From assembly GCA_022925895.1 (NCBI GenBank), contig JAKSYS010000058.1, positions 62,001 to 126,000 of the forward strand: 64,000 bases of DNA, written 5' to 3'. Source of the stretch: Fragilaria crotonensis. Its lineage: Eukaryota; Bacillariophyta; Fragilariophyceae; Fragilariales; Fragilariaceae. How positions within the stretch are numbered: the stretch's first letter is position 1; each line of letters begins with the position of its first letter. A model generated the notes under the pieces. It was given only the letters and a program-made list of their open reading frames with translations, was not told the DNA's origin and ran no database searches. Positions 14,073 to 47,322 of this stretch are shown piece after piece. The position numbers were made by a program, and so were the translations under genes.

Positions 14073-16672
14073 ATGCTGACTGCCGCTTTGGTGGCAAGTA
14101 AGTCAAGATAATAATGTCCTTTCCCAAGTTAAAGACGGTTCGCCAGTCATTCGATTGAATGCTACAACTCGGTTGGTACATCTACCCCTTGTCGTTCCAT
14201 TCACCTATGAGGGTGACGACGGTTCGTATGAAGTGGATGGATGGGATTTATCTATTATTGTCGGATATTTTCTGGCTGTCAAGCACATTAATGACCGTAA
14301 TCCCGCCATTCTGGCCAATCTACCGGCACTCTTCGAAGGGTGTGACATTCAATTTTCTACTGAAATATTCGATTCGCAGTACAGTCCAGTCGTGGGATCG
14401 CGGTACATTGCAGAACTGTTGCAACGGAACCCTCACTCCATCGAGGCACCCTACCCCGCGGCGATTGTGGGAGGTGCTTACAGTAGCGAAGCCAAAACTG
14501 CGGCTGTGTTAAGTGGCATTTATGGAGTACCGTTGGTATCGAGTTCGGCAACATCGTCCGAACTCGAGAATCGAGAAGTTTACTCAACGTTTGCGAGAGT
14601 TATTCCCACGGATGCAGGTAATGCTCTTGTCATGGTGGAACATCTTGCTGATCTTGGTGTTTACGAGTTTGGGGTGGTGTACATTCGAAATGAATTCGGG
14701 GAGAATTATCTCCGTGACATCCGTACCGAGGCTGCCAAACGGAACATGCGAATTGAAAGCTTTTGGTACGAGACAATAGAGGAGGCATTGCAACCAGGGT
14801 CATTAGACGCTGCCATGACAGAGTTACAAAAGACGAAGCTCAACTACTTCTTCGGCATTCCATACTTATCGAAGGCAATCGAGGCTGAGATCATGAGAGC
14901 AGCGTATCGAGCCGGTATTGCAGGACCTGGTTTCGTCTGGTTCCTGAACGATTCATTACTGGACGAGCTAGAATTCGATGCTGATGATAGGAAATTATTG
15001 ACTCAGTCAACGGAGTCGGAACCCTTGTTCTTCAGCCGAAAGTGCCAGATACAGCAGAGGCCGTTCTTATGCAATTCCAGTTCGATGAAGAACTACAAGA
15101 GGAATTCGTCCGTACTGTCAAGAACGAGGACAAGGAAGTTTTTGTGAACTATAATTTGACGAAGGAGGAACCGTTTTATACGTTTTGGTTTGCACTCGCA
15201 TACGACGCCATGCTCCTGCCGGCATACGCAGCTTGTAATATCGACAAGGAATTCTTTTCCTCAGCTGACTTATACAGCGCGATATCGCAGAGCGAATTTG
15301 ATGGTGCCACTGGACGCATCCGCTTATCACGGAGTACACAAACTCGTGATCCGGCGTCGATTCAGTCCTCCCTGGATAATTTCGTCATTGACAAGGCCGC
15401 TTCCAAAAATGGAAAGGTGCGATTCAAACGGAGAACCGTGGAACTTATTCGATACGATGAAGCCGATCATGGAAACTCCGTGAACCAGTTCATATACTCG
15501 GATAACTCAACCAATCCACCACTTCCAATGCCACCACAAGAAGTTAATTTGAACTTGATTAACAATACAACCAGGATCTCGGGATTGGCGCTGTGCATAC
15601 TTGTCATCCTCACTGCACTGGGTTGGATCGTCTTCACCTACGTGCACCGGAAGCAAAATACATTCGTGGATCCCAGCCGCCTTTCTTGTACATGCTGTGC
15701 GTCGGCGTTATCGTGATGGCGGCCTCCATCATTCCAATGAGCTTTCAGGAGCCCATGCCGACGTCGTCCTTGAATGTGTCGTGCATGTCACAGCTTTGGC
15801 TGTTATCCGCTGGATTCACAACCACTTTCTCAGCCCTCTTTTGCAAAATCTGGAGATTGAACAAACTGATAAAATCTTCCATCCGATTCAAAAGAATGCG
15901 AGTGCGAATTCAGGATGTGCTTTATCCGTTTGCGATCCTGCTCAGTGTGAACTTTTTGTTGTTGACCGTCTGGTCAGTGGTTGACCCTCTTGTGTGGGTT
16001 CGCTCTACCGATGATCAATTTATGACTTCTGGCCAAGCCAGTGGTTCAACGGGAGCTTGCGCGAGCGCATCGAAGCAAAATGAAATCATTTTCTACACGT
16101 TGTTTTGTGTGTTTAACTTTGCTGCCCTCGGATGTGCGAATTGGCAAAGTTACAAAGCTCGGTCATTACAAACCGATTTCAACGAAAGTACAAATATTAC
16201 CCTGTCCATGTTGTTCATGACGGAAGCAGCAGTGCTGGGTGTGCCAGTGTTGTTTCTAGTCGGTCAGGATCCATCGGCTTTCTTTTTGGTCCGATCTGTG
16301 CTGATTACGATTATATGTCTCGGAGTTCTAATGCCCATCTTTGTGCCAAAGGTGTCACTGAGGAACAAAACGGCGCTCGCAGCCACTCGTGTGGTGGCCT
16401 CCAGACGTCACGACGAACCAGTGATCCGCCGGGGGAGCGGCGGACCATGGTGGCACGGCAGCAGCGACGATGGCTCGGGGACCGAACTCGTCGACGCTGA
16501 ACCCCGACGAACGCGCTTGGTACGAATGAGTGCCTCAACACTGGACCGAAACCGATCAGATTCGCGGCAGGCCACTGGGGAATTTCAGTTTGCTCCCAAA
16601 CATCAATCATTGCACCAGAGGATTGTCGAGGCGACGATTGATCCTCTTGCCGTTGATGAAAGTGATTCATGA
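14073..16672 (+). CDS. class C GPCR, GABA-B-receptor-like, with periplasmic-type ligand domain
   Basis: An extracellular Venus-flytrap domain (ANF-receptor type, about 14155-15540) contains YFLAVKHINDRNPAILAN, PAAIVGGAYSSEAKTAAVLS and VPLVSSSATSSELENRE. Seven hydrophobic helices follow, among them LALCILVILTALGWIVFTYV, PPFLYMLCVGVIVMAASI and VRSVLITIICLGVLMPIFVP. The loop after helix 3 (FCKIWRLNKLIKSSIRFKRM) and IFVPK after helix 7 are GABA-B-like. The tail is basic. The frame steps by one missing base twice, at the AAA run 14992-14994 and the AAAA run 15655-15658. One more A in each gives uninterrupted family sequence, so these are probably base-calling errors. The N-terminus is uncertain: ATG 14073 plus a short intron (donor GTAAGT at 14098, acceptor CAG up to 14146) fits the phase but is unusually short. 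Confidence 0.85.
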
Positions 16673-23824: not shown

Positions 23825-24166
23825 TACAAAATGATACGACTTTTTAGGACATTATAAAATTGTGAGCTCTCTCTCTCTCGTTGACTCTGTATGCGTTATG
23901 CATCAATTAGGCAGAACGAGTGTTACCCCGAGTATCATGCAAATAATGCCCGAGTATGCATAATGCATAGCTGCGCTCAACAGCGAGAGAATTCAATGTC
24001 AACAAAGCACTCGATTGTTTCAACCCAATTGAGAAGGCCTATCATGATCCTGTGATCATAGTAGTCTAGCAGGCACCAGCTGCCGGAGAGATGCGAATCG
24101 AGCAATGGGGAGATAATTTTGCATTTTCGCCGCAAGCGAAGGGAAAGAATGATAGAAACCCATAGT
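23825..24166. other. intergenic between convergent genes
   Basis: Contains a (CT)n run near 23864-23880 and inverted ATGCATAATGCAT-like motifs at about 23892 and 23954. No gene. Confidence 0.5.
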
Positions 24167-28191: not shown

Positions 28192-31100
28192 ATGAGAATG
28201 CAGTCATCCATTTGGCTCCACCCAAGAGAAAGGTATCGGTTCATCAGAAGCTCCGTAAAGTACCTTTGTCGTGAAACTCGTTTCCGACACAAGTGGCGGA
28301 CTGCTGACCACCTTGTTGCACTCTGTCATGAGTGGTTTACAATTCCAGAGCCCCTACAATTCAATGCCAATGATCTTAATAATGCTTTGTTGAAAGATCC
28401 GGCATTGAAGCTAGATATGCAGGCAGAAAAGTCAGCTCCAAACCAGTTTGGGATCTATTACGATACCTACCGCCCAAAAGATACCAAGCGAAGAAATCAT
28501 TGTTACTATCTGTGTGATCCAAATGGAAACGATCATGTCCAGAGTCCATCATTAGGAAAGGCTTGGTTTGCCACTATCCCAGATATGATGGATGACATAA
28601 GGGCACTGGAACGTGCGACCCGAAACAAAGAACAACGGCAGTTTCCGCCCGATGTAATTGACTTGGTGTCAATCGCAAAGAACCAAGAAGCAATCCAGTG
28701 TAAACGACAAAATAAAGAAGAAGAGGTTGAAAGAGCAGCTAAAAGACTTTGTTGTCAAGACTCTACTCCGACAACTAGTCAGCATACCGAACAAGTAGTA
28801 CCAGCATGCCGTCTTTCCAATCATACTTCTAGTAGCAGCAGCAATCGAGATGAGCAGGAGACGCCGACCAGCATAACGATAAAGACGGAACAAGAGTCCG
28901 ACACAAAGCCCCAGCTTCCTCCAGGATGCAATATCTGGTGGCAGTCGAAACTGGCATTCAAGCTTTTTAATGCCTCCGAAGACAAGGAGACTGTACTCGA
29001 CCGAGTTGAGGAATTGATTGCCGTCCTCGACAACGCAAACTCATCTGCTGTCGCCTTCAAAACAATTGTCGAGGGTTTGGATTCTGAGGATGACGAGGAC
29101 ACAATGAGTGAGCACAAGAAAGAGGACATAAGAATGAAAGCAAGATACCTCGCGCAGGCTTACCGTGTTGCCATTGAGGAGATGCCATTCAAGAAGTGGA
29201 ATGATTGCTGCCGTGATGCAATCGATCAACTTGCTGCCGTTCATATAAAATACATAACGAACGAAAAGTTCTGCGACGATGGCATGTTCAGTTTTGTAAG
29301 AAGAAATTGTTTTCCATCAAGAGAAAGGGCAACAGAGACTTACCTGCTTTCCTAGAGGCACATCCTATTGTCGTTACTGTGATAAAAGAGTATGGCCGCG
29401 CGAATCTTACTGAGCTTTCAGTCGAGATGATGCATTCGTATCTTCACGATACAATTGTAAAATCGCTTGTCATGGAACGCCTGCAAGGACAGAATGAAAT
29501 AATCAATTGTGAGTTTGAAGAAGAGAAGTTGAATCTGTTCCAAGAGTACGGCTTAAGCTGTCTCTGTCGTAAGACGACTTACCAATGGATGTTGAAGCTA
29601 GGATTTCGATATGAAACACGTCGAAAGGGATATTACGTTGACGGACATGAAAGGAAGGCAACAGTTCAATATCGGTGGGACTTCTGCGACCGATATCTAT
29701 CGCTTGAGCGCAGAATGTTTCGGTGGATTCAAGTAAGTCTGGAAGAGGCGGAGAAACTGCAAGCGTTAGGCGAAGTCACAAAGGGCAGCGGATACAAGTA
29801 CACCGACGAACTTACCGGAAAAGCAATGGTGGAGTATCATGTTGACACCTGCCGAGGATTCATGGATTGCATGAACGAACAAACTATATTTGGCGGAAAT
29901 CTCAGCGTGCGAATGAATCCGGATGAGCGCCCTGTCATTTCGTTCGGTCAAGACGAATGCATTGTCAAACAGTATTCATTTACAAACAAGAGTTGGACTG
30001 GGCCAAATCGCGAACAGGCACTGATACCAAAAGACGATGGCCTTGGGTGATGATGTCGGATTTGCTTCACGTGAGTTTGGGTTTGGAGTGTCGCTAACAA
30101 CCGAACAACTCCAACGCGTGAATGCTAATAGACTTGGAAAGAAATACAAGGATGAGTCGGCGGCCAAGAAGAAACGAGGAAGCGAATTCAAGCAGCCACT
30201 TACCATAAGTCCCTTTGTTCTGGAGTTCGAGTATGGAGCGTCTGCAGAAGGATACTGGACATACGATTCAATGGTCCTTCAATTGGAAGACTGCGCTGAT
30301 GTTGTCACAACTCTGTATCCCCAGTACGACTTCCTTTTCCTATTTGATCACTCATGCGGTCACGATAGAATGCCCGAAGATGCGCTGCGAGTAGATGGAA
30401 TGAACAAGGGATACGGGGTGAGCAAAACATCATGAGAGATAGCATTATCAAAGGTGAAGATGGATACCTTGGACCACACAACCGCAGTCTCAATGTGGGC
30501 GACGTTCAATCTATGGTCTTCCGTTCCACAGACAACGGGCCATACTGGATGACTCCAGAAGAACAAGAGCAAACGAGGAAAGATCATTTCGTAACGACGG
30601 TTACTACAAAGGAGCACACCAAGCCACAGCTGATTGAGCTGCTCCGGCAGCGAGGCATTGAGAATGCAAAAGGAAGTAAGAAACATATCAGGAACATGGC
30701 AGAGCGCGCAGGCATCTCACTCACTTACCAGAAACAAGATGTGCTTCAAGGCTGGGAAGGAAAAGCAAAAGGGATGGAGCAGATTCTTTGGGAGCGTGGA
30801 TGGATTGATCCCAGTCAGGATCGAAGAACCTATACGGTTAATGGTAAAAAAGATTCGATGGGAGCACTCAGAAAAGACACAAGCCTTCGCTACCTCATGT
30901 CAAACCTCAAGGACTTTGAGGGCCAAGAAACGATGCTTCAACTCAAGGCAACGGAGATGGGCGTATTTATGGATCGAACTCCGAAATGCCATTGTGAGTT
31001 GGCTGGAGAGGGGATTGAATATGCATGGGGATGCGCCAAGAATCATTATCGAAGACAACCTCTGAAGGACAAGCGCGGAAAGGACAACTTCCGAAGGACA

Positions 31101-31385: not shown

Positions 31386-32135
31386 TCGTCGCGCTTCATG
31401 ATTCTTGCGTTTGTGTTGTTGGTGTCGAAACTGAAATCTTTATGACATGCGTCTTCAATGATGCCATTTGTCTACGGTAGTGGCAGTATTAAAATCTCGT
31501 ACTATTTTTTTTGTATGAAAGCCTACTAAGCCTACTAAGCCTACTTGAGTCACTCTGATATTGTACCCAGCCATATGGCTATAGTATGATATTTATTTAG
31601 TTTTTTTGCACTCCGATTCTTTCATCACGTATCACGTCAAATGTCGTGCTCTATTGCTGTTGACATTGATCCTTGATTATCTTCTGATCAGGACCACCTC
31701 CCGCGTGGCCTAAGGTCTCAAATTGACCGCCATGAGTAGCTATGATGAGTGGGATCAAAATCTACCCACGCGGAAAACACACTCCTGCATATGTTTTCTC
31801 AATATACACGTCAAGCATGACAGTTTGCCATGCTGTCAACACTGCGCATGTTGATCCCCAAATTCAACATGATTGTTAAGTTTCGGTCCAGCAGCCAGCA
31901 GTTGACAAGAAGTCTATCAGAATATAATCATTCAACGTTTTGAAGTTGACTTTGACCACAAGGTGCCTCATGGAGGCATGATGAGCGTCAATGGTGTTCA
32001 CTCATTGTGAGCGTACATTTTCGTTCATTTGAATTTCGTCAAGTATTCCCGTATACAAAAATACTACATCGTTGTATACAGATAACTACTCAAGGAGTTT
32101 CCTTCCATTAATGGCTAGCTAATTTAATTTATATG

Positions 32136-32181
32136 AGTGCTACGGTGGCTACCCAAGGTACTTTTTATCTGCACCCAGCCA
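32136..32181 (-). repeat. right terminal inverted repeat of the DDE transposon
   Basis: Reverse complement begins TGGCTGGGTGCA and is followed outward by TA. It is separated by about 600 bp from the inner copy at 31564-31575, whereas the left pair is adjacent. Confidence 0.7.
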
Positions 32182-32203
32182 TATCATACAGCACAGAGTA
32201 GTG

Positions 32204-32430
32204 CTAACCATGCCCCAAGCTACGAAGGTACCCAAGACTGACAGACGAGGAACCGGTACACCATTCATTTATACAAACACAGCAACGGTATCAATTCTTT
32301 TGAAAAGTCATTTTCAAGAATCGGCACTTTGGAGCAACATCTCATACATACGTCGAACGAGAATAACAACAGGTTGAAGAGAAAAGACTGATCATCTTTT
32401 GGACCCGACTGCGTCGTTATTTTTGATTTC
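32204..32430 (+). repeat. split direct repeat A1
   Basis: 227 bp, identical by eye to 40476-40702. It marks the left end of the retrotransposon and starts CTAACCATGCCCC. Confidence 0.85.
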
Positions 32431-32821
32431 GTCTTCGCTCCGCGTTGTGTAACACGCCTTCAGCTCGTGTGTTATTGCTTTTATCGGTGGGTGTCATGTC
32501 TGCTTTGTTTGGCCTTTCTGCGGGTCGCCCTCGGGCGTCAAGCCCCACTGATCGTGGAGCGGAAGGTATGTATCGTGGACGGGGGGGGGTGTTGTTTTGT
32601 CGTCGCGTTCTGGCGTCAGTCTCTGGAAAGGGAACGGGTCTGGGCTTGGTGTTTCGTTCTGCGGCGGTGTTATCGGCAAAGCTGGTCACAAGATGTGCGT
32701 GATGACCGATTGCACAGTCGGTGCACGTTGGACGGAAGGCAGTATTCCCAACGCTGGATGATGGTAGCGACGAGGCTGTTTTCATTGTCAGCAATGCCGG
32801 GGCGCTAACGACGTTCAGTCA

Positions 32822-33517
32822 GTGCACTTAAGCCCATGTGTTGGTACCCTGAAACTTGGCACAAATTTGGACCGGTATTTGGAAGAGAGACGCGAAGTGT
32901 TAGATTGGGAAACACTATTCAATGGGATTAACGCTCGAGTAGCGGGACGCGAAGGACAAGTTGACGAAGAAGACTTCGAACGAATCTCTCGTAAGTTGGA
33001 TGGAGACTTAGCCATTGGAATGACCCCATTCAAGAAACGGCCTAAGTTGGAGGTGGTTTCGCCTCCGGAAGAATTTGAGGACATCTCGGAATTTGCTCTT
33101 GAAACGGCTGTTGAGTTGGGCGATGACTTTCTCAACGATGGGTCACTAAGAATGGCAATTCGGAGTCTTGGAGCGGGGCTCCAATCTATTGGTAATCGTG
33201 CGGATAGCAATCGCAGTGCGCTTCGCGCGCTCGCTTACGAGACGAGGGAGGAATTGGAGTTGGTGGATCTGCAATTGTCCAAACTTAACAGCTTGTTAGG
33301 CAAACGCGGTCAAGACGATGGGACTCTTTCGGCTTTCGAAGTGCTCAGGGAACTGGAAGAGCAGGTGGAACGCTTGCGAAACGCTATTCAACCAGCCATC
33401 GTGTTGGCAGCTGATGCTTCCGAGCAATCTGAGTCGATGAAGCGGGAGATTTTTGACACCATGCAAAAAGGGCTGTGCCCCCCTATTTCATCTTTATCGT
33501 CTTTACTCAACCGATGA
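32822..33517 (+). other. retrotransposon leader-side ORF (Gag-like position)
   Basis: First sizeable open frame of the element. The product is acidic and helical (for example EVLRELEEQVERLRNAI). No domain recognised; its position before the reverse transcriptase is that of Gag. Confidence 0.5.
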
Positions 33518-34214
33518 GCATACTCCGGGTAACTTGCTAAACCAACGCATTCGAAAACTGGAGGCAGGAGTGTTGGAGTTGATGTCTAAGGTGAACGACT
33601 CGGGTGGGCCGGTGTCTATTTCGTTACCACCTTCTCCAGCTCGCACTGGAGCACAATTCGGTTTCAGTTTGAGCAACAACAACAACACAGACGTGCCGAG
33701 TAGTGCAAGGAATCCCGAAGTACGTTTTACAGCCGGAGGAGTAAACGAGCCAGAATCGATGGCGAAACTTTTGGGGATGGAGATCCAAATCCACGAACTA
33801 AAGAACCAGATGCAAGCAAATGCGGTGACTATCGGAGGAAAACTTTTTAAGTCGCGCGCGGACGTTAAATCTTGGTTGGCTGTGCACGCTGGAGCGTCAG
33901 GGTCGTATGTTTTCTTTTCGGATATTCATTCTGTCATGGCGCTCAAAATGGGTGTCACCTTAGATGATGCGGCAGCGGACGCAGATTTTGAGAGTAAGGT
34001 TCGCAAGAACGGATACGCTCACACGGAAGAAGCGAGAGTGGCATCCTCTTTCTCGCGAAGTCTGCCTTCATTCTTTGGGAAGCCTACGCCCACGGAAGCG
34101 AGGAAGCTGCCTGCAGTCAAGAAGCCAGAAGACTGGGAACCCAAAACGATGGGTGATGGAGCGCGAGCAGTGTTGGATAGGGGCTTGACGGCGGCTGCGA
34201 GGGCTACTGTCTAG
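33453..34214 (+). other. retrotransposon ORF in Gag-like position, second part
   Basis: Overlaps the previous frame. Contains a helical segment (MEIQIHELKNQMQANAV). No zinc knuckle was seen. Part of the element's structural-protein region by position only. Confidence 0.45.
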
Positions 34215-34227
34215 TGCCAGCGACTTC

Positions 34228-34713
34228 TTGGTGGGTGAAGGTTTGTTGGTAGCCCAGGCCACCATTCAAGCATCGGTCAAGTTCATGACAGATCTATCGA
34301 CCTGGATGACGCGAGAGTACCTTGAGCTGCTCAAGCGTGGAGGTTCAGAAACTGAATGTTGGGGTCTCATCTCGCATTGCGTGCGTGCGGTGTTTGAAGA
34401 CCTTCATGAAGCAAGAATGCCTGGGCGAGGACCTCACATGACTACTGCCGATCGCGCCGCCTCAAGCGCATGGGGGTGTTTCCAGGCGCAGTTGAAGATG
34501 CAGGAGTTTGAGAAAATGGGCTTCGGAGCACACCCCACGCTCAGTTACATCTTGAACATTCACTTGAGGGATCACACGGTGTCTCGAGCCACGTTCGATC
34601 GTTTGGTGACTCGGTTGGAGGCCGTTGAAGCGGCAGTGAAGGTGAACACGAACACGATTCGCAACACGTCGTCCAAAGTGGGGGAGATCAAGAAGGTGGC
34701 GTTGAAAAGCTGA
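34228..34713 (+). other. retrotransposon ORF before the reverse transcriptase
   Basis: Open frame rich in helices (FDRLVTRLEAVEAAVKVN). It ends just before the reverse-transcriptase frame. Family unknown. Confidence 0.45.
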
Positions 34714-34749
34714 CAAAGTGCAGGGAGGGAGGAAAATGAAGTCGGAAGG

Positions 34750-37416
34750 GTGACTAATCGCCCTATGTCTGCTGGAGTGGATCAGATGATCTCCACCAGA
34801 CTCCAACTACATGATACGAATAAAGTTAAACTTTCCTTCGTATCCTCCTCTGACCCGCAGGTTTTTTATCTTTTTGTTGGTCGAAAGGCGCAGGTAGAAT
34901 GGATTTTAAGCGAAAAACCGTTCGTGGCGAGACGAGAATGTGACCCTGTGTTGGTTTCTCCTGCTAAAGCATCTACTGTCACTCTTGCAAAAGATAGTCC
35001 GGTGGACGTCTTAATCTTTGAAGGGAAGCCTCCCAAGTCCGATGACCTGGTCTGGGAAGCAATCGAGGTTAGGAGAATTGCTTGGATTGACGACACAGGA
35101 AGAGGCCGATTCAGGTGGGACAACAAGGTGGGTTGGCGCATTCACCGTCGTTCAATCAGCCATGCAGCGATCGGCGGGGTCACCGACGGGATTTTTTCGG
35201 TGTTTCTTGCGAGTCGTGTGGAAGAGGACGTCGGTTGGTGTATCCCAGCGACAGGGGTGCGAGCGACATTAAGCCGAGTGGTTGATCCTACGAAGGGCGG
35301 GCGAGCTGTAGATCCGCCAGTGGCTACCACTGGATCGGTGGAAGCAAGGAATACTGCGAGAGGTCTATTGGAGTGGAAGAAGAGATTCGATAAGGTTTGT
35401 GTCCCAACAGTTTACTCAAAGGATAAGTGGGCAGTGCGGAAACTGAGCGATACCGAGCTAGTCGATGTGTTGGACCTCCCGGGAACGATGAGGAAGAGGA
35501 TGAACAGTGGGCAGTTGGCACAGTTGAGCAAGTTGAAGGTTCCAGGAAAAGTGATGGCGGCCGTTGTAGAGTCTTTGGTAACGTTGGTAACGGACGGTCG
35601 AAAAAGAGATGACCTTACACTAGCCGTTAAGAATCTGTCGAGGAAAAGACCGATGGAGGAGGCGCAGGGTGCCAGTAAGAAAACAAGGCACCTCGAAGGT
35701 GACTCGCACTTTGAACAAGCTAAAATGACGAAAGGCAACGGTGAGTCAGAGACGACAATCTCGATTGCGAGGGTTGAAAATGCTGAAGCAACGGCGCCGG
35801 TGGAATTGTCCACGGTTGTTGACAAGGCTGTCAAGTCGGATGACGCGCCGGCTCCAGTACATTTGTTTGATCGGAGAGTGTTGGAGGCTTTCCCTTTTGT
35901 TATCGATAGAGAACGGAATAAATGTGGAGGGAAGCTAGGTTGGGTCGAAGCGCTGGAATTGCTACGCAGTTTCTGCCTGCACATTTGGAAGCGTAAGGTC
36001 CGACGGGAGTTCGTCGAATGGTTGACAAGTCGTAAGAGCACGACAATTGATCTGATAAGCATGGAGAAATTGGGATGGGACGCGTGTCGACGAGTGGATG
36101 GAGCGTCGTTCTGGGAGTGGGACTGTGGGTCTACACCCTTATTTTGGAGGTGGCCCGAAGTCTTTCAGCGGGATATCTGGCAAGGTGCTGCCCCAAGGTT
36201 TGTGGGTGCACCGCCGACTTCAAAAGAGGCTCAACCAGCGTATGAAGATATGAAGGTGCGAGCGAAGGTGTCAGCCAAGCTGCAGAAAGTTGTTGATCGG
36301 GGGTACATCGAGATCGTGGAGGATGCAGAGAAAGTTAAGTCGTTCATGTTCATGTTTGATGTGCCGAAAGGAGATTCAGACATCAGAATGGTGTATGATG
36401 GTTCACGCAGTGGTTTCAACGAGTCGATCTGGGCGCCCTGGTTTGCTTTGCCAACGGTGGATACAATGACCAGAACAGTGTTGACAGGAGGCTGGTGCGG
36501 AGATCGCGATTTCGGCGAGATGTTTTTGAATTTCATGTTGCACCCCGAGGCAAGGGTTTACTGTGGAGTTGATCTGGCACAATTAGATCTTACTGTGCGA
36601 GGCCCGGCTGCCAGCAAGGCTACGTTGATTGGATGCTGGACTCGAAATGCGATGGGGCTTCGGTCAAGCCCATATTTGTCTGTACAATCCGTCACGAGGA
36701 TCAAGCAAGCCTTCTTGGGGAACCCCTCGGATCGGGAAAACCCTTTTCATTGGGAAACAGTAGGTTTGAACCTTCCGGGATCCGAAGGATACGACCCATC
36801 AGTGCCGTGGATATCTAAGTTGAGGTATGACAGGACCATCGCCGTTGACCTACACATATATATTGATGACGTGCGGATTACAGGCCAGTCAAAGGAGTTA
36901 GTTTGGAGGGCTGGGTCGCGGGTGGCTAAACTTTGCAGTTATTATGGGCTGCAGGATGCGCCAAGGAAGCTCAGGGAGCCTAGTCAGACTCCTGGCGCTT
37001 GGGCTGGCTCAGTGGTGGCGACGGACGGAGGATGTGTCACAAAATTTGTGACGGACGAACGCTGGGGGAAAACTCAAAGGAGTATTCGATGGATCGCGAG
37101 CAAGTTGGGCATCGCCGGCGACGACTGGAGTGTTGGGTTACCCGCAGATGAGGACGAAGGAAGGATCCCGCAGGGGAAGATTCCTCACAAGCAGGCTGAG
37201 CGGATTCGAGGGTTCCTGATCTACGTCTCACGTACCTACACGGCAATGGTGCCTTATCTCAAAGGATTACACCTGACGCTGGATTTTTGGCGAGGCGGGA
37301 GGGACAACGAGGGTTGGAAGATCATCGGAAGGGAGGAGGAAGGGAATGGGAACAAAATGCGTTGTTGTCGAGTAATCGAAAGGCTCCGCGTTTCGTGTCG
37401 GTTGCACCAAGGTTAA
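34750..37416 (+). other. retrotransposon reverse transcriptase ORF
   Basis: About 890 codons. The C-terminal third carries the polymerase: MFDVPKGDSDIRMVYDGSRS (fingers), YCGVDLAQLDL and NAMGLRSSPYLS (palm), and the active-site box IYIDDVRITG. This arrangement is that of DIRS/Ngaro-type reverse transcriptases. The N-terminal part has no recognised domain. Confidence 0.8.
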
Positions 37417-38459
37417 CGCATGACATCAAAGCGTTAATGGTGTTGACCGCGTTTCAAGAGGCGCCCCGCATGGAGGTACGAGCAACTAGCACGGCAGCGG
37501 CCTATTTGGTGGGAGATGCCTCAGGCTCGGGGTTCGGAGATTGTCTATGGGTGCAAGGTGAGGAAGGCATGAATATAGCCTTCGGTTCATGGGACAACGA
37601 GGTCAGCGAGAGGTCGTCTAACTTCAGAGAAGGATACAATCTCGTGTTGCGCCTGGAAAATTTGCTTCATGAAAAAGCAATGTGTCGAGGAACAGAGCTT
37701 TGGGTGTTCACGGATAACGCGGTGGCGGAAAGTGCTTTTAACAAAGGGGCCAGTAAGTCGAAGCTGTTACACGAGCTATGTGTGCGGCTAAGAAAGGCAG
37801 AAATGGCACATGGTCTGCACATCAATATGGTCTGGATCGCGGGCACGCGGATGATTGCCCAAGGTACTGATGGGTTATCAAGGGGAGACCTTACCAGTGG
37901 AGTGATGGCTGGCGACAGTTTTCTCTCCCACATCCCTTTGAATCTCGGGGCTTTTTCACGTTCCATGGCGCTACAAGAGTGGCTTGAAAGTGCACTACCT
38001 CGGGAATGGCAGTGGCTAAAGACAGGAGAGGATTGGTTCAGACTCCCTTTTGGTGATGGGATGGGTCGATATGTCTGGGATCCCCCCCCGGTTTTGGCCG
38101 ACGTGGCCTTGGAACAACTTTGTGAAGCAAAATTGATGCACCCCTTTTCGAGTCATTTGTTCGTTTGTCCTTTGTTGTTAACCGGGCGTTGGCGAAAGCA
38201 GTTTCTGAAAGCTGTGGATGCTTGGTTTACTGTTCCTGTCGGGTCCGTTGTGTGGGATAACGCTTGTCACGAACCTGTTTTGATCGGACTAATGTGCCCA
38301 CTTCTTAGACATAGTCCATGGTCGGTCAAGCGTCGGAGCGCAGAAGTGGACAAGTTCCGACATACGATGTATTCTATGTTCCGGGATCGTGACCCAGCTA
38401 CACGGAGTTGTCTGCGCAAATTTTGGTTTTCAGCGTGGAGTGAGTCTGGGATCATGTGA
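37287..38459 (+). other. retrotransposon RNase H ORF
   Basis: Overlaps the end of the reverse-transcriptase frame. Contains LVGDASGSGFGDCLW, a conserved Glu region (SSNFREGYNL) and ELWVFTDNAVAES, followed by IAQGTDGLSRGD, the RNase H layout found after the polymerase in DIRS-order elements. Confidence 0.75.
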
Positions 38460-39864
38460 AGGAGCATGGCACGGGGCGTGTTACAAGCAGTCGGAGAAGG
38501 ATAACTTTCCGGTTTTCAATCAGGAGACGGAGGCTGAAGACTTGGTGTCAGACGACAAGATGGAGGAAGAGGACCCGAATAGATTTAAGGAGGCAAGAGA
38601 CGGTGACCATCTAATGACGCCTTTTCAATGCGATGGGTGTCATTTCGAAAATTGTAAGCGGCGACATCCAATTCCGAACAACTCCCAAGATGAAGTTGCT
38701 TTGTTATGCATTCGACGAGCGAATTTGGATGCGTTATGGTCGAGGGAACGATCAACGGTAAGATCGAATCGGCTACAAGGGAAACACTGGGTTTCAGCGA
38801 GTGAAAGTGCAGGATGGAGTAATCTCGCGCTGCCCAAGAGGGGGCCATTCCCAGTTGAGGACACCTTTGGAATGCAAGCGGCTGTCAACATGTTGTTGCG
38901 ATCAAGAGACGTGGGTATCAACTCGAAAAACATTCAGTATGAAACGATGAGGAAGCTCAGATCCTTTCTGTCCAACTTCGTACACACAACCTATGGAGGA
39001 CATGGCGATACATTCATGTCGGAAGATGGTGGGGGTGGCACCATCTCAATGTCTCCTACGAATTCACCGTGGTTTAAACGCTTCATGAGGGGAGTGCATA
39101 AGAGGATGGGCGACGTATGGATTCCAGACCGAGCGTTAATGAAGCGTGAACTTATGTTTTGTCTGACCCTGTTGGAAGAAGATTGGATATGTTATTTCGA
39201 TGCGGATGATGGAGGAGGAAAGCTGAAAGCTGCTCTCACAGCAACAATGCTGATCGCAGGTTGGTTTGCAGCTTTGCGGGGAGAGGAGATCGTAAGAATT
39301 GACGTCGGACAGATGCGGCAGCACTGGGTGGAGAGCGTAAACCACACTGAAGAACCACACGTCCCGCTGATGTTGTCGGGTCGGTTCAAGCGCGAGATTG
39401 GTGAGAAGGTATTCTGTCAACCACTAGCTATGACATCAAAGTCGGGAGTTAACATCGGGGAATGGATATGGAGAACTCTTGAGACTTTGGGACAACAAAA
39501 CATTATGTCGGGCCCAATGTTTCGAGTGGCCGATAAAGGGAAGGGAGTCTACAAGCGAGCCACGACGGCTGATTTGAACCCAAGTTTTATTGGACTGCTG
39601 GAGAGAGTCCAAAAACGTTGGGCTAATGCTTTTGTAGGAAATTTGGATATCGGCAAAGAATTCAGCATTGGTCGTTCATTGCGCAGAGGAGTGACTTCAG
39701 AAGCACAAAATGTTGGAATACCAAGAGAAGTCATTGAAGCCAACAACAGATGGAGACGTCAAGCGCGATCTAAAGGACTCACTCCGGGAATGTCAATGAT
39801 GGAACGATACTCGGATGCCAAAGCAAGCGTTCCGACGCTGGTGCGGTTTTCGAAGGACTTGTAG
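38389..39864 (+). other. retrotransposon tyrosine recombinase ORF
   Basis: The C-terminal half has the recombinase pattern of Ngaro/DIRS elements: GWFAALRGEEIVRID, then SIGRSLRRGVTSEAQN, NRWRRQARS and SMMERYSDA with the presumed nucleophile Tyr. This enzyme replaces the integrase of LTR elements. Confidence 0.8.
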
Positions 39865-39978
39865 TAGGAGAACCAAAGCCCAATTTCCCAAAAGTCTCTA
39901 CTGGGAAAGCGTTGTCGACCGCTAACCTATGACGACTAATCGATGAGGGAAGTTTGGGAGGTAGAGTGCCGAGGGGGG

Positions 39979-40475
39979 TTTTTTGCGCTGAGAACTCTAC
40001 GAGTTCGCAGCCCATGTTTTGTGAAGATTCTTGAGACTACCAAGCGAATCCTTTTGAAGTCGAAGCAGAGCGATCGGATTTGCTATCCGATCGCTCTTGG
40101 CGAGAATATGCACATATAGCGTATTTTCGTCAGAAGGCAAACCCGATGGGAATGTACTTGGACGCAGACTCCAAGTCGGGCCTTCTGTCAGACAGAGACA
40201 TCAGAGGAGGGAATTGGATTAGCAAGAATTGGAGACCGGCCTTGCATTTTTATTTTGTGAGCCGGGAAACATTTGGAATTTTGTCACGAAATCCATATTT
40301 AAGCAGGGAATCGGGAAAGTGACAAGCCACCCCCCACTACGGCAGTGCTTCTACAATTGAACACTGCTATTATCGGTTGAAGAAGTTGTAAACTCTAATT
40401 TTTATGTCTGGGAGAAGACTCCAGGGTAGATATAGATAATGGTGTCCCGAGGACGAATCTGAAACGATTAAGTAC
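39979..40475 (+). repeat. split direct repeat B1
   Basis: 497 bp, two differences by eye from B2. Contains a perfect 13-bp stem with 5-nt loop at 40067-40097 and, just after it, further paired segments around 40133-40192. Confidence 0.85.
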
Positions 40476-40702
40476 CTAACCATGCCCCAAGCTACGAAGG
40501 TACCCAAGACTGACAGACGAGGAACCGGTACACCATTCATTTATACAAACACAGCAACGGTATCAATTCTTTTGAAAAGTCATTTTCAAGAATCGGCACT
40601 TTGGAGCAACATCTCATACATACGTCGAACGAGAATAACAACAGGTTGAAGAGAAAAGACTGATCATCTTTTGGACCCGACTGCGTCGTTATTTTTGATT
40701 TC
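40476..40702 (+). repeat. split direct repeat A2
   Basis: 227 bp copy of A1, placed directly after B1. Followed by a 15-bp C/A-rich spacer before B2. Confidence 0.85.
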
Positions 40703-40717
40703 CACACCCACCCACCC

Positions 40718-41214
40718 TTTTTTGCGCTGAGAACTCTACGAGTTCGCAGCCCATGTTTTGTGAAGATTCTTGAGACTACCAAGCGAATCCTTTTGAAGTC
40801 GAAGCAGAGCGATCGGATTTGCTATCCGATCGCTCTTGGCGAGAATATGCACATATAGCGTATTTTCGTCAGAAGGCAAACCCGATGGGAATGTACTTGG
40901 ACGCAGACTCCAAGTCGGGCCTTCTGTCAGACAGAGACATCAGAGGAGGGAATTGGATTAGCAAGAATTGGAGACCGGCCTTGCTTTTTTATTTTGTGAG
41001 CCGGGAAACATTTGGAATTTTGTCACGAAATCCATATTTAAGCAGGGAATCGGGAAAGTGACAAGCCACCCCCCACTACGGCAGTGCTTCTACAATTGAA
41101 CACTGCTATTATCGGTTGAAGAAGTTGTAAACTCTAATTTTTATGTCTGGGAGAAGACTCCAGGTTAGATATAGATAATGGTGTCCCGAGGACGAATCTG
41201 AAACGATTAAGTAC
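40718..41214 (+). repeat. split direct repeat B2 (right end of the retrotransposon)
   Basis: 497 bp copy of B1 with the same hairpin at 40806-40836. The flanking sequence after GATTAAGTAC differs from that after B1, which sets the right border. Confidence 0.85.
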
Positions 41215-45909: not shown

Positions 45910-47322
45910 ATGAACTTCTTTGACGACGACGACGATGACATCATGGAGTTCCTCATCCATGAGGAGGACGATGACTTCACCGAAGCTCTGGTTATTATCG
46001 CCGACAATCTTGAGGACGATACCGACGAGGATGACGATGACATTCCTTTTGTTCCCCCATTTGTTTGGGGTAGTGGTTCTCGTGTTGGAAAGGCTCCCAA
46101 CATTGAACGTCGTCGTGTTTTTTACTCACACCTCCTTTTCAATGATTTTTGGGGTCCTACTCCCATTTACAACGCCACATACTTCAAGAAGTTCTTCAAG
46201 ATGCCAATTGCATTGTTTGACGACATCGTGGCAAAAGTGACTGCAAACGACGACTACTTCCGACAGAAGACGGATGCTGTGGGTAAGATGGGACTGTCAT
46301 CGCTTCAGAAGATCTGCTCAGCTGTCCGTCAGCTCACATCTGGTGTCAGTTCCGCAGAACACGATGACAAGTATCGTATGGCTGCATCAACAGGGTTGGA
46401 AGCCTGCAAACGCTTCTGTCATTCAGTCATTGAAGTGTATGGTGACGACGCGCTCCGTCACCCAAATGCTATTGACATCGGACGACTGCTTGATGAGGGT
46501 TGCGCTGCTGGCTTTCCCGGATGTATAGGCTCAATTGATTGCATGCATTGGGAGTGGAAGAACTGTCCTTCCGGTTGGAAAGGCATGTTTCAAGGAAAGT
46601 CAGGCGTCCCGACAGTTGTTTTGGAGGCAATCGCTGATAACCGATGTCGTTTTTGGCATTTCAACTTTGGATCTGCAGGGGCATTGAATGATCTCAACAT
46701 CTTGGACCGCTCTCCCTTGTTTGACAATGCCGTTCGCGGTGAATCTCCTTCTGTTCATTTTGTTGTGAACGGGAATGCCTATCAGTACGCATATTGGCTT
46801 GGTGACGGAATCTATCCTCGCTATGCTTGCTTTGTGAAAACGTTTGCAAAACCCCAGACTCGGATGCAAAAAATGTTTGCATCGGCGCAGGAAGCAAAGA
46901 GGAAGGACATTGAGCGAGCGTTTGGAATGCTCCAAGCAAGATTTCATATCCTGACCTCAGCTTGTCGTCTTTGGGAACGTCATGCGATGAAGACAGTCAT
47001 CAAGACATGTGTGATTCTTCACAATCTTGTGATTGACTTCGAGCGCCAGAACGGAATCGATTCTGACTACATTAACAATGAAATGTACATCCCGCAGCAT
47101 CCATTTGTTGTCATTCCTAGAGAGGGAGGACAAACTTGTGATACGAGATCCCAAATGATCTCGGCGATGCAGAACTCGGAACTTCACACTCGTCTTCAAC
47201 ACGATTTGATGATCGACAGGTGGGAAAAATGGTACGCAAACAACAATGATGACGATGACGAAGAAGAAGCTCACGACGACGACGAAGCTCACGAAGAGAA
47301 CGAAAACGAAAACGAATTGTAG
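45910..47322 (+). CDS. PIF/Harbinger transposase (DDE_4, HARBI1-like), 470 aa
   Basis: Single open exon, ATG 45910. The N-terminus is extremely Asp-rich. The catalytic domain shows IGSIDCMHWEWKNCPSGWKG (first Asp), FGSAGALNDLNILDRSPLFD (second Asp) and KDIERAFGMLQARFHILT (Glu), the DD(35-50)E pattern of Harbinger nucleases. WLGDGIYPRYACFVKTF and CVILHNLVIDFE are further family blocks. The C-terminus is again Asp/Glu-rich. All three catalytic acids are present and there is no break, so the protein looks functional. It needs the Myb-like partner encoded opposite to reach DNA, as known for the family. Confidence 0.92.
   Translation: MNFFDDDDDDIMEFLIHEEDDDFTEALVIIADNLEDDTDEDDDDIPFVPPFVWGSGSRVGKAPNIERRRVFYSHLLFNDFWGPTPIYNATYFKKFFKMPIALFDDIVAKVTANDDYFRQKTDAVGKMGLSSLQKICSAVRQLTSGVSSAEHDDKYRMAASTGLEACKRFCHSVIEVYGDDALRHPNAIDIGRLLDEGCAAGFPGCIGSIDCMHWEWKNCPSGWKGMFQGKSGVPTVVLEAIADNRCRFWHFNFGSAGALNDLNILDRSPLFDNAVRGESPSVHFVVNGNAYQYAYWLGDGIYPRYACFVKTFAKPQTRMQKMFASAQEAKRKDIERAFGMLQARFHILTSACRLWERHAMKTVIKTCVILHNLVIDFERQNGIDSDYINNEMYIPQHPFVVIPREGGQTCDTRSQMISAMQNSELHTRLQHDLMIDRWEKWYANNNDDDDEEEAHDDDEAHEENENENEL

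Follow-up and report, generated by a model that had tools for sequence, protein, structure and literature searches.

Probable recent PAT/Ngaro-type retrotransposon with split direct repeats in Fragilaria crotonensis, and candidate splice signals for its recombinase

In a stretch of 64,000 nucleotides (nt) from the diatom Fragilaria crotonensis (contig JAKSYS010000058.1, positions 62,001 to 126,000; the window), we analyzed an element at positions 32204 to 41214, which the initial annotation had described as a young tyrosine-recombinase retrotransposon of the PAT/Ngaro type. Our results indicate that it is probably a recent retrotransposon of the DIRS order with split direct repeats (PAT/Ngaro type), resident in a diatom, which would use a cycle based on a B/A repeat junction and a spliced recombinase RNA. 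With somewhat less assurance, we favour a conserved retrovirus-like splice as the control of the recombinase. A Gag leader would be joined over approx. 5.7 kb to an acceptor in pol, approx. 150 nt would be dual-coding, and one RNA population would be split into genome/Gag-Pol RNA and the mRNA of a deviant (RxxR) enzyme, while the repeated B/A sites would allow gain or loss of A-B units. The overlap between the recombinase and pol frames, with its splice-like signals, is new here and was absent from the initial annotation.

Repeat comparison revealed the order A1-coding region-B1-A2-B2 where the initial annotation had placed it (Table 1). The two A copies are identical (227 of 227 nt) and the B copies differ at 2 of 497 nt, as had been read earlier. 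Taken together, 2 of 724 repeat positions differ (0.28%), which suggests that the insertion is recent and fits the description of the element as young. Neither of the structures that had been named as incompatible with a PAT/Ngaro-type element was found: there is no inverted repeat of at least 40 nt between positions 30000 and 44000, the inverted terminal repeats of the DIRS1 type and their internal complementary region were not found, and there are no long terminal repeats, the split repeats A and B being the sole repeats at the locus.

The lengths of the repeats (227 and 497 nt) and their recurrence elsewhere in the genome argue that this order did not arise by chance. The full order was found in C133 (A1 at 14174-14571, B1, A2, a spacer of approx. 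62 nt, and B2 ending at 23969; A1 and A2 100% identical) and in C307, and in 15 of the 21 loci examined direct B1...B2 repeats follow the recombinase. For each of the six loci without B repeats (C547, C354 twice, C30b, C255 and C223), approx. 1.5 kb of downstream sequence was covered. C456 carries an extra A-B unit (B1-A2-B2-A3-B3; the coverage begins downstream of the A1 region).

The ends of the element are equally regular. CT begins A, and a C follows the last B, in all five independent insertions compared (the window, C547, C133, C307 and C456). In the first four of these, the left and right flanks have at most a single C in common (CT in C133), and no target-site duplication was found. 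Such flanks fit recombination at a B/A junction whose core is very short, without target duplication. For both the window copy and C547, the flanking sequences occur beside occupied sites only, and no empty site was detected. The left flank of the window copy (31582-32188) belongs to a multicopy repeat with many matches at 71-78%, which ends approx. 15-20 nt before A1; the right flank is single copy.

A search of the assembly (62.1 Mb, 881 contigs) with the A and B repeats, as the initial annotation had proposed, yielded three other close copies (C547, C540 and C30), with 97-99% identity over the parts searched. The three have the same flanks, C547 and C540 differ by 13 substitutions in 3584 positions, and C540 and C30 show many gaps of 1-2 nt and few substitutions. 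The common flanks and near-identical sequence show that they represent one insertion, which was either duplicated or assembled repeatedly, with decay or sequence error. The gaps in C540 and C30 resemble unpolished long-read sequence, and would inflate the number of apparent pseudogenes in the assembly. Each of the three copies contains one A and one B, and A2-B2 is absent. Between the window copy and C547, 26 of 2099, 92 of 5605 and 47 of 3584 aligned positions differ (three overlapping stretches).

Searches with the reverse transcriptase (RT) retrieved 57 pieces, which were grouped by position into approx. 31 loci (locus counts for large families are lower bounds): four belong to the window kind, two to a close relative (C354), and the other 25 are divergent, with 35-42% identity. 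The RT tree places the window kind on a very long branch apart from the others, whose own placement is unsure. Outside this genome, no relatives were confirmed in viral or prokaryote contigs.

The coding region begins with a gag-like part, assigned by position, for which no family match was obtained and in which, in the window copy, no CCHC zinc finger was found. In this copy the gag region is split over three frames, and RT and RNase H over two; these interruptions may reflect damage or assembly error. In C547, RT and RNase H form a single open frame of 1248 codons and thus lie within one pol. A TGA stands in frame before pol in the window, C547, C67a, C307, C204 and C680 (loci including L013, L020, L023, L025 and L032; in the last four contigs the frame upstream of the TGA was covered for 18-63 nt, and it is open over the length covered), which suggests that Pol would be reached by readthrough or restart.

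The RT claimed by the initial annotation was recovered through its pair of aspartates, which reads YIDD in the window and VDD or ADD in relatives, and through weak matches to PF00078 in all 15 of the aligned relatives, the best with an expectation (E) value of 3.4e-4, all of them short of Pfam's own cut-off; the window protein alone gave E 0.21. RNase H, which had also been claimed, shows the conserved D-E-D-D motifs (GDASG, E, FTDN and QGTDG), while the Pfam RT_RNaseH profile gave E 0.14-0.18 in just 2 of 12 proteins. A conserved domain (WxPPP ... HEPLLIG) follows RNase H; neither Pfam nor NCBIfam matched it, PDB gave no meaningful match, and it may correspond to the methyltransferase-like domain of DIRS and PAT elements. 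A match of the RNase H alignment to methionyl-tRNA synthetase (E 0.0055), located in a Trp-rich stretch, was regarded as due to chance. A profile search of PDB returned nothing for RT or for the recombinase.

The last frame would encode a tyrosine recombinase, as judged from motif order: R297, K334, RxxR (429-432), W455 and Y474 (window numbering) are invariant in 12 of 12 proteins. This part of the initial annotation therefore stands as regards the order of motifs, and lacks the support of a PF00589 match and of the catalytic His, which is replaced by Arg. Structure predictions for the window recombinase and RNase H proteins alone reached a mean predicted local distance difference test score of 34 and 38, and the models were unusable. 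Genome-wide, PF00589 gave 62 weak matches, none on these element loci, and the six inspected had the canonical HS(I/L)R. These matches represent a second, canonical HxxR group of recombinases in the genome (e.g. L074-L079), perhaps Crypton-like.

The recombinase frame of the window copy is open from 38293 onwards, while its pol frame runs to 38456, and other loci with intact frames have a similar overlap and an identical relation between the two frames. Codon-position diversity in 16 families (near-copies C353, C760 and C547 left out) revealed a pol-type periodicity upstream of approx. -75 nt from the conserved CANFG motif and a recombinase-type periodicity from approx. -60, with both frames constrained over approx. 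150 nt until the pol stop. In 13 of the 16 families the first recombinase-frame ATG is located downstream of CANFG; the other three (C307, C223 and C109) have one approx. 135-145 nt before it. C353 (L061) has one T fewer than C58 (L060) in a T run, which places pol and recombinase in one frame, either by sequence error or as a real fusion.

The overlap contains a conserved candidate acceptor. In the set of 15 families (C58, whose frame is broken and which reads GTC AGA, was also left out), an AG precedes CANFG by approx. 103 nt (by 106 nt in the window) in 15 of 15. The codon containing it encodes Arg in nine families, always AGR (background 0.39), and Ser in six, always AGY (background 0.21); where the preceding codon encodes Leu it is always CTY (10 of 10; background 0.28), and where it encodes Ile, in five families, it is ATY. 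Approximately 25 nt upstream of the AG, CTAAT is present in 11 of 15 families and CTCAT in three; CTAAT rises to 12 of 15 if the window's own (C549; 38289-38293), which lies 9 nt further on than in other families, is counted. CTA serves as the Leu codon of this motif in 11 of 15 families (background 0.086). In 12 of 15 families the recombinase frame has its final stop between -129 and -120, and in eight of these the stop is inside CTAAT. As a control, 34 Leu columns of RT and RNase H were compared: the CTAAT column had the top CTA share (8 of 11), the next reaching 31%, and the AGN column was the sole mixed Arg/Ser column in RT/RNase H. C680, outside the 15, fits the pattern, and C354, the nearest relative, keeps CTAAT and has its AG six letters further on, at the position of the window's second AG and in the same phase.

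Candidate donors were found at the other end. The window, C547 and C354 have AAG or CAG/GTATGT 70-85 nt past a common ATG, which is the gag start too in C547 and C307; C133 and C307 have AAAG/GTA at +154 and +172, and C204 has GAAG/GTACGG at the aligned place. The donor-like sites of the window and C547, C354, C133 and C307 are all in phase 1, as the acceptor requires. Candidates for donor, branch point and acceptor, in compatible phase, as in a spliceosomal intron, are all present, with exceptions in C307, C204, C223 and C109.

The RNAs, the circle, the enzyme activity and the splice themselves are deduced from these sequences, and the cycle would run as follows. A full-length RNA would start inside A1 and end inside B2, and the internal B1/A2 junction would supply the ends that this RNA lacks, so that a circle with a B/A junction could form. 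The recombinase would join this junction to the target, leaving A1 on the left, B2 on the right and one common C, without target duplication. Gag and Gag/Pol, separated by the in-frame TGA, would be made from unspliced RNA. In a second RNA, the donor approx. 70 nt past the gag ATG would be joined to the acceptor in the RNase H-proximal part of pol, giving a recombinase with a short Gag leader. Retroviral env-type splicing follows the same division, with unspliced RNA for Gag/Pol and spliced RNA for the downstream product. Exchange of units at B/A would fit the single A and B of C547 and the extra unit of C456.

Several observations weigh against this reading. C307 has a second, better-scoring donor-like site (+154, same phase), the leader frame of C204 is broken before the donor, and C307, C223 and C109 have CTC instead of CTA. 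These last three could also start the recombinase without splicing, since their in-frame ATG lies upstream of the acceptor, and C547, a near-copy outside the 16 families, has an ATG 42 nt upstream of CANFG. The naive p of 1.6e-8 for conservation of the signals ignores relatedness, the phase match amounts to about two independent 1-in-3 events since the families fall into few deep lineages, and the pyrimidine tract is partly due to the encoded LFPF. No copy derived from a spliced RNA was found in the genome; C533 has a recombinase without RT, but its contig ends 45 nt past the match. As for the enzyme, the canonical catalytic His is Arg in 12 of 12 proteins (RxxR, not HxxR), no Pfam (PF00589 included) or PHROG match was obtained, and hhalign against the genome's other recombinases was weak (E 0.067, probability 0.8%; RT control 0.62).

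It is unlikely that the same retrotransposon reaches its recombinase by a programmed +1 (or -2) frameshift out of pol. The constant frame relation and similar overlap of intact loci would suit such a mechanism, as would C64, which at the place of the acceptor reads CTT AGG C, the +1 frameshift heptamer of Ty1. However, a heptamer of this type was found in only 1 of 15 families, the codon before AGN varies (CTC, CTT, ATC, ATT), and a frameshift leaves both the conservation of the upstream CTAAT and the phase-matched donor-like sites unexplained. We consider it a shade less likely again that translation of the recombinase is initiated at a codon other than AUG or at an ATG further downstream, the conserved letters then reflecting dual coding only. 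With both overlap frames constrained, synonymous change would be low anyway, and 3 of 16 families do have an upstream in-frame ATG; yet the AG (alternating between Arg and Ser codons) and CTA are kept upstream of the stretch with recombinase-frame conservation, and for 13 of the 16 families a start at a downstream ATG would mean the loss of a conserved Cys/Trp stretch.

The identity of the enzyme and the extent of the element were weighed in the same way. The missing profile match, the Arg in place of His and the unusable models would be expected if the downstream protein were not a tyrosine recombinase and insertion were carried out by another enzyme. This is improbable given that R, K, RxxR-G, W and Y occur in order and with the usual spacing, that the local hhalign match falls exactly on the HxxR...RW box of the genome's recombinases, and that the frame is positioned after RNase H in an element with split repeats and no target duplication. 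Least probable of all, and very doubtful, is the view that A1-coding region-B1 is the whole unit and A2-B2 an adjacent small non-autonomous element. The A-coding-B structure of C547, C540 and C30 and the extra unit of C456 speak for it, but those three copies count as one insertion only, divergent families also carry B1...B2 (15 of 21 loci), and such a split-repeat order is the rule in PAT, Ngaro and VIPER elements according to sections of PMC4157794 and PMC6681497.

Table 1. Features of the element in the window copy (positions of the window; a slash marks a junction)
Feature	Positions	Strand	Remarks
A1 repeat	32204-32430	+	left end of element; first letters CT; identical to A2
Candidate exon 1 (gag ATG, 23-codon leader)	32496-32565	+	ATG conserved in window, C547, C354
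Gag-like region, broken in this copy	32496-34710	+	frames 32768-33514, 33441-34211, 34189-34710; by position only
Candidate donor AAG/GTATGT	32566-32571	+	sole donor scoring at least 4 in stop-free stretch; phase 1
In-frame TGA, last gag-like frame/pol frame	34711-34713	+	frame inspection
RT open frame, YIDD	34714-37413	+	RT part approx. 36058-37350; profile and motif
RNase H (D-E-D-D) and conserved post-RNase H domain	37200-38456	+	motifs
Candidate branch point CTAAT, pyrimidine-rich stretch, acceptor AG	38289-38314	+	AG 38307-38308; second AG 38313-38314
Candidate exon 2, tyrosine-recombinase-like frame	38309-39861 (from 38315 if second AG)	+	overlaps pol to 38456
B1 repeat	39979-40475	+	495/497 same as B2
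A2 repeat	40476-40702	+	abuts B1 (40475/40476); identical to A1
Spacer A2/B2, 15 nt	40703-40717	+	sequence comparison
B2 repeat	40718-41214	+	right end of element; C next; pairs with B1

The genome searched fits the diatom host assumed by the initial annotation. The silicon-transporter family was found at 19 places, 18 of them above the Pfam cut-off (best E 4e-193), and these matches, with the ankyrin, kinesin and cullin genes of the window, make a diatom host very likely. Three silicon-transporter units lie in a single open frame of 1456 codons (C97:29749-33762; G000). Downstream of the element, at 45910-47322 of the window, there is an open frame with Plant_tran/DDE_Tnp_4 transposase domains (E 1.1e-79).

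Assignment to a joint PAT/Ngaro type, as first proposed, is supported by the split direct repeats, by the presence of RT and RNase H, by the absence of inverted or long terminal repeats and by the recurrence of the repeat order in relatives. The comparisons that follow draw on the accessible sections of the papers cited. The Ngaro elements of Cafeteria burkhardae (PMC8547959) and Ectocarpus (PMC12477816) have the order A1-[ORFs]-B1A2B2 (ORF, open reading frame), with Gag, RT-RNase H and recombinase in the same succession and internal repeats, as here, downstream of the recombinase, and they occur in stramenopile hosts with solo or rearranged A-B units, the Cafeteria elements showing both split repeats and solo units (PMC8547959). 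The Cafeteria Ngaros differ in their HxxR and their PF00589 and PF00078 matches (PMC8547959), in contrast to the RxxR in 12 of 12 proteins and the missing PF00589 match here, and our element has in addition the conserved post-RNase H domain and an overlap of pol and recombinase that contains splice-like signals. PAT elements (Pat1, Toc3, Kangaroo; PMC4157794, PMC3266345, which also give the classification rules) share the split direct repeats; the recombinase described here runs in the same direction as the rest of the element, unlike that of Kangaroo, and overlaps pol, an arrangement that half of a set of 28 DIRS1-like elements show as well (same sources). A methyltransferase-like domain after RNase H, with the motif WxPPP, may be a further common feature; the domain found here had no library match, and the window gag region had no CCHC zinc finger. 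VIPER of trypanosomes has the order A1...B1A2B2, and SIRE, the short form of VIPER, consists of a short A-spacer-B unit comparable to A2-spacer-B2 of our element; the hosts are kinetoplastids, and such a splice is not mentioned in the accessible text (PMC6681497).

A spliced RNA for a separate product beside an unspliced one is described for BARE (PMC3735527); in contrast to BARE and to retroviral env, the spliced product here would be the integrating enzyme, and the acceptor lies within pol. Elsewhere, the accessible accounts present overlapping pol and recombinase expression as an overlap or a frame change, with no mechanism given. Literature searches, which left most subscription journals and the main group reviews outside, found no report of such a splice; the terms 'splic' and 'intron' do not occur in PMC3266345, PMC3783388 and PMC9210276, and PMC5633606 contains only a reporter intron. 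Among stramenopiles, Ectocarpus has 15 Ngaro and five PAT-like families (PMC12477816). Intron-containing transposon genes were curated in that paper using RNA data, and its accessible sections do not specify if these include any of the Ngaro or PAT type. For diatoms, CryptonS has been reported (PMC3212892), and a 2009 retrotransposon paper treats DIRS, in its accessible sections, as a probe or tree group only (PMC2806351).

These results add a large family of recombinase-bearing retrotransposons to those of diatoms. If the splice is real, it would provide a testable answer to the question of how overlapping pol and recombinase frames are expressed, would represent convergence on a retroviral strategy, and would explain why gene finders break such elements.

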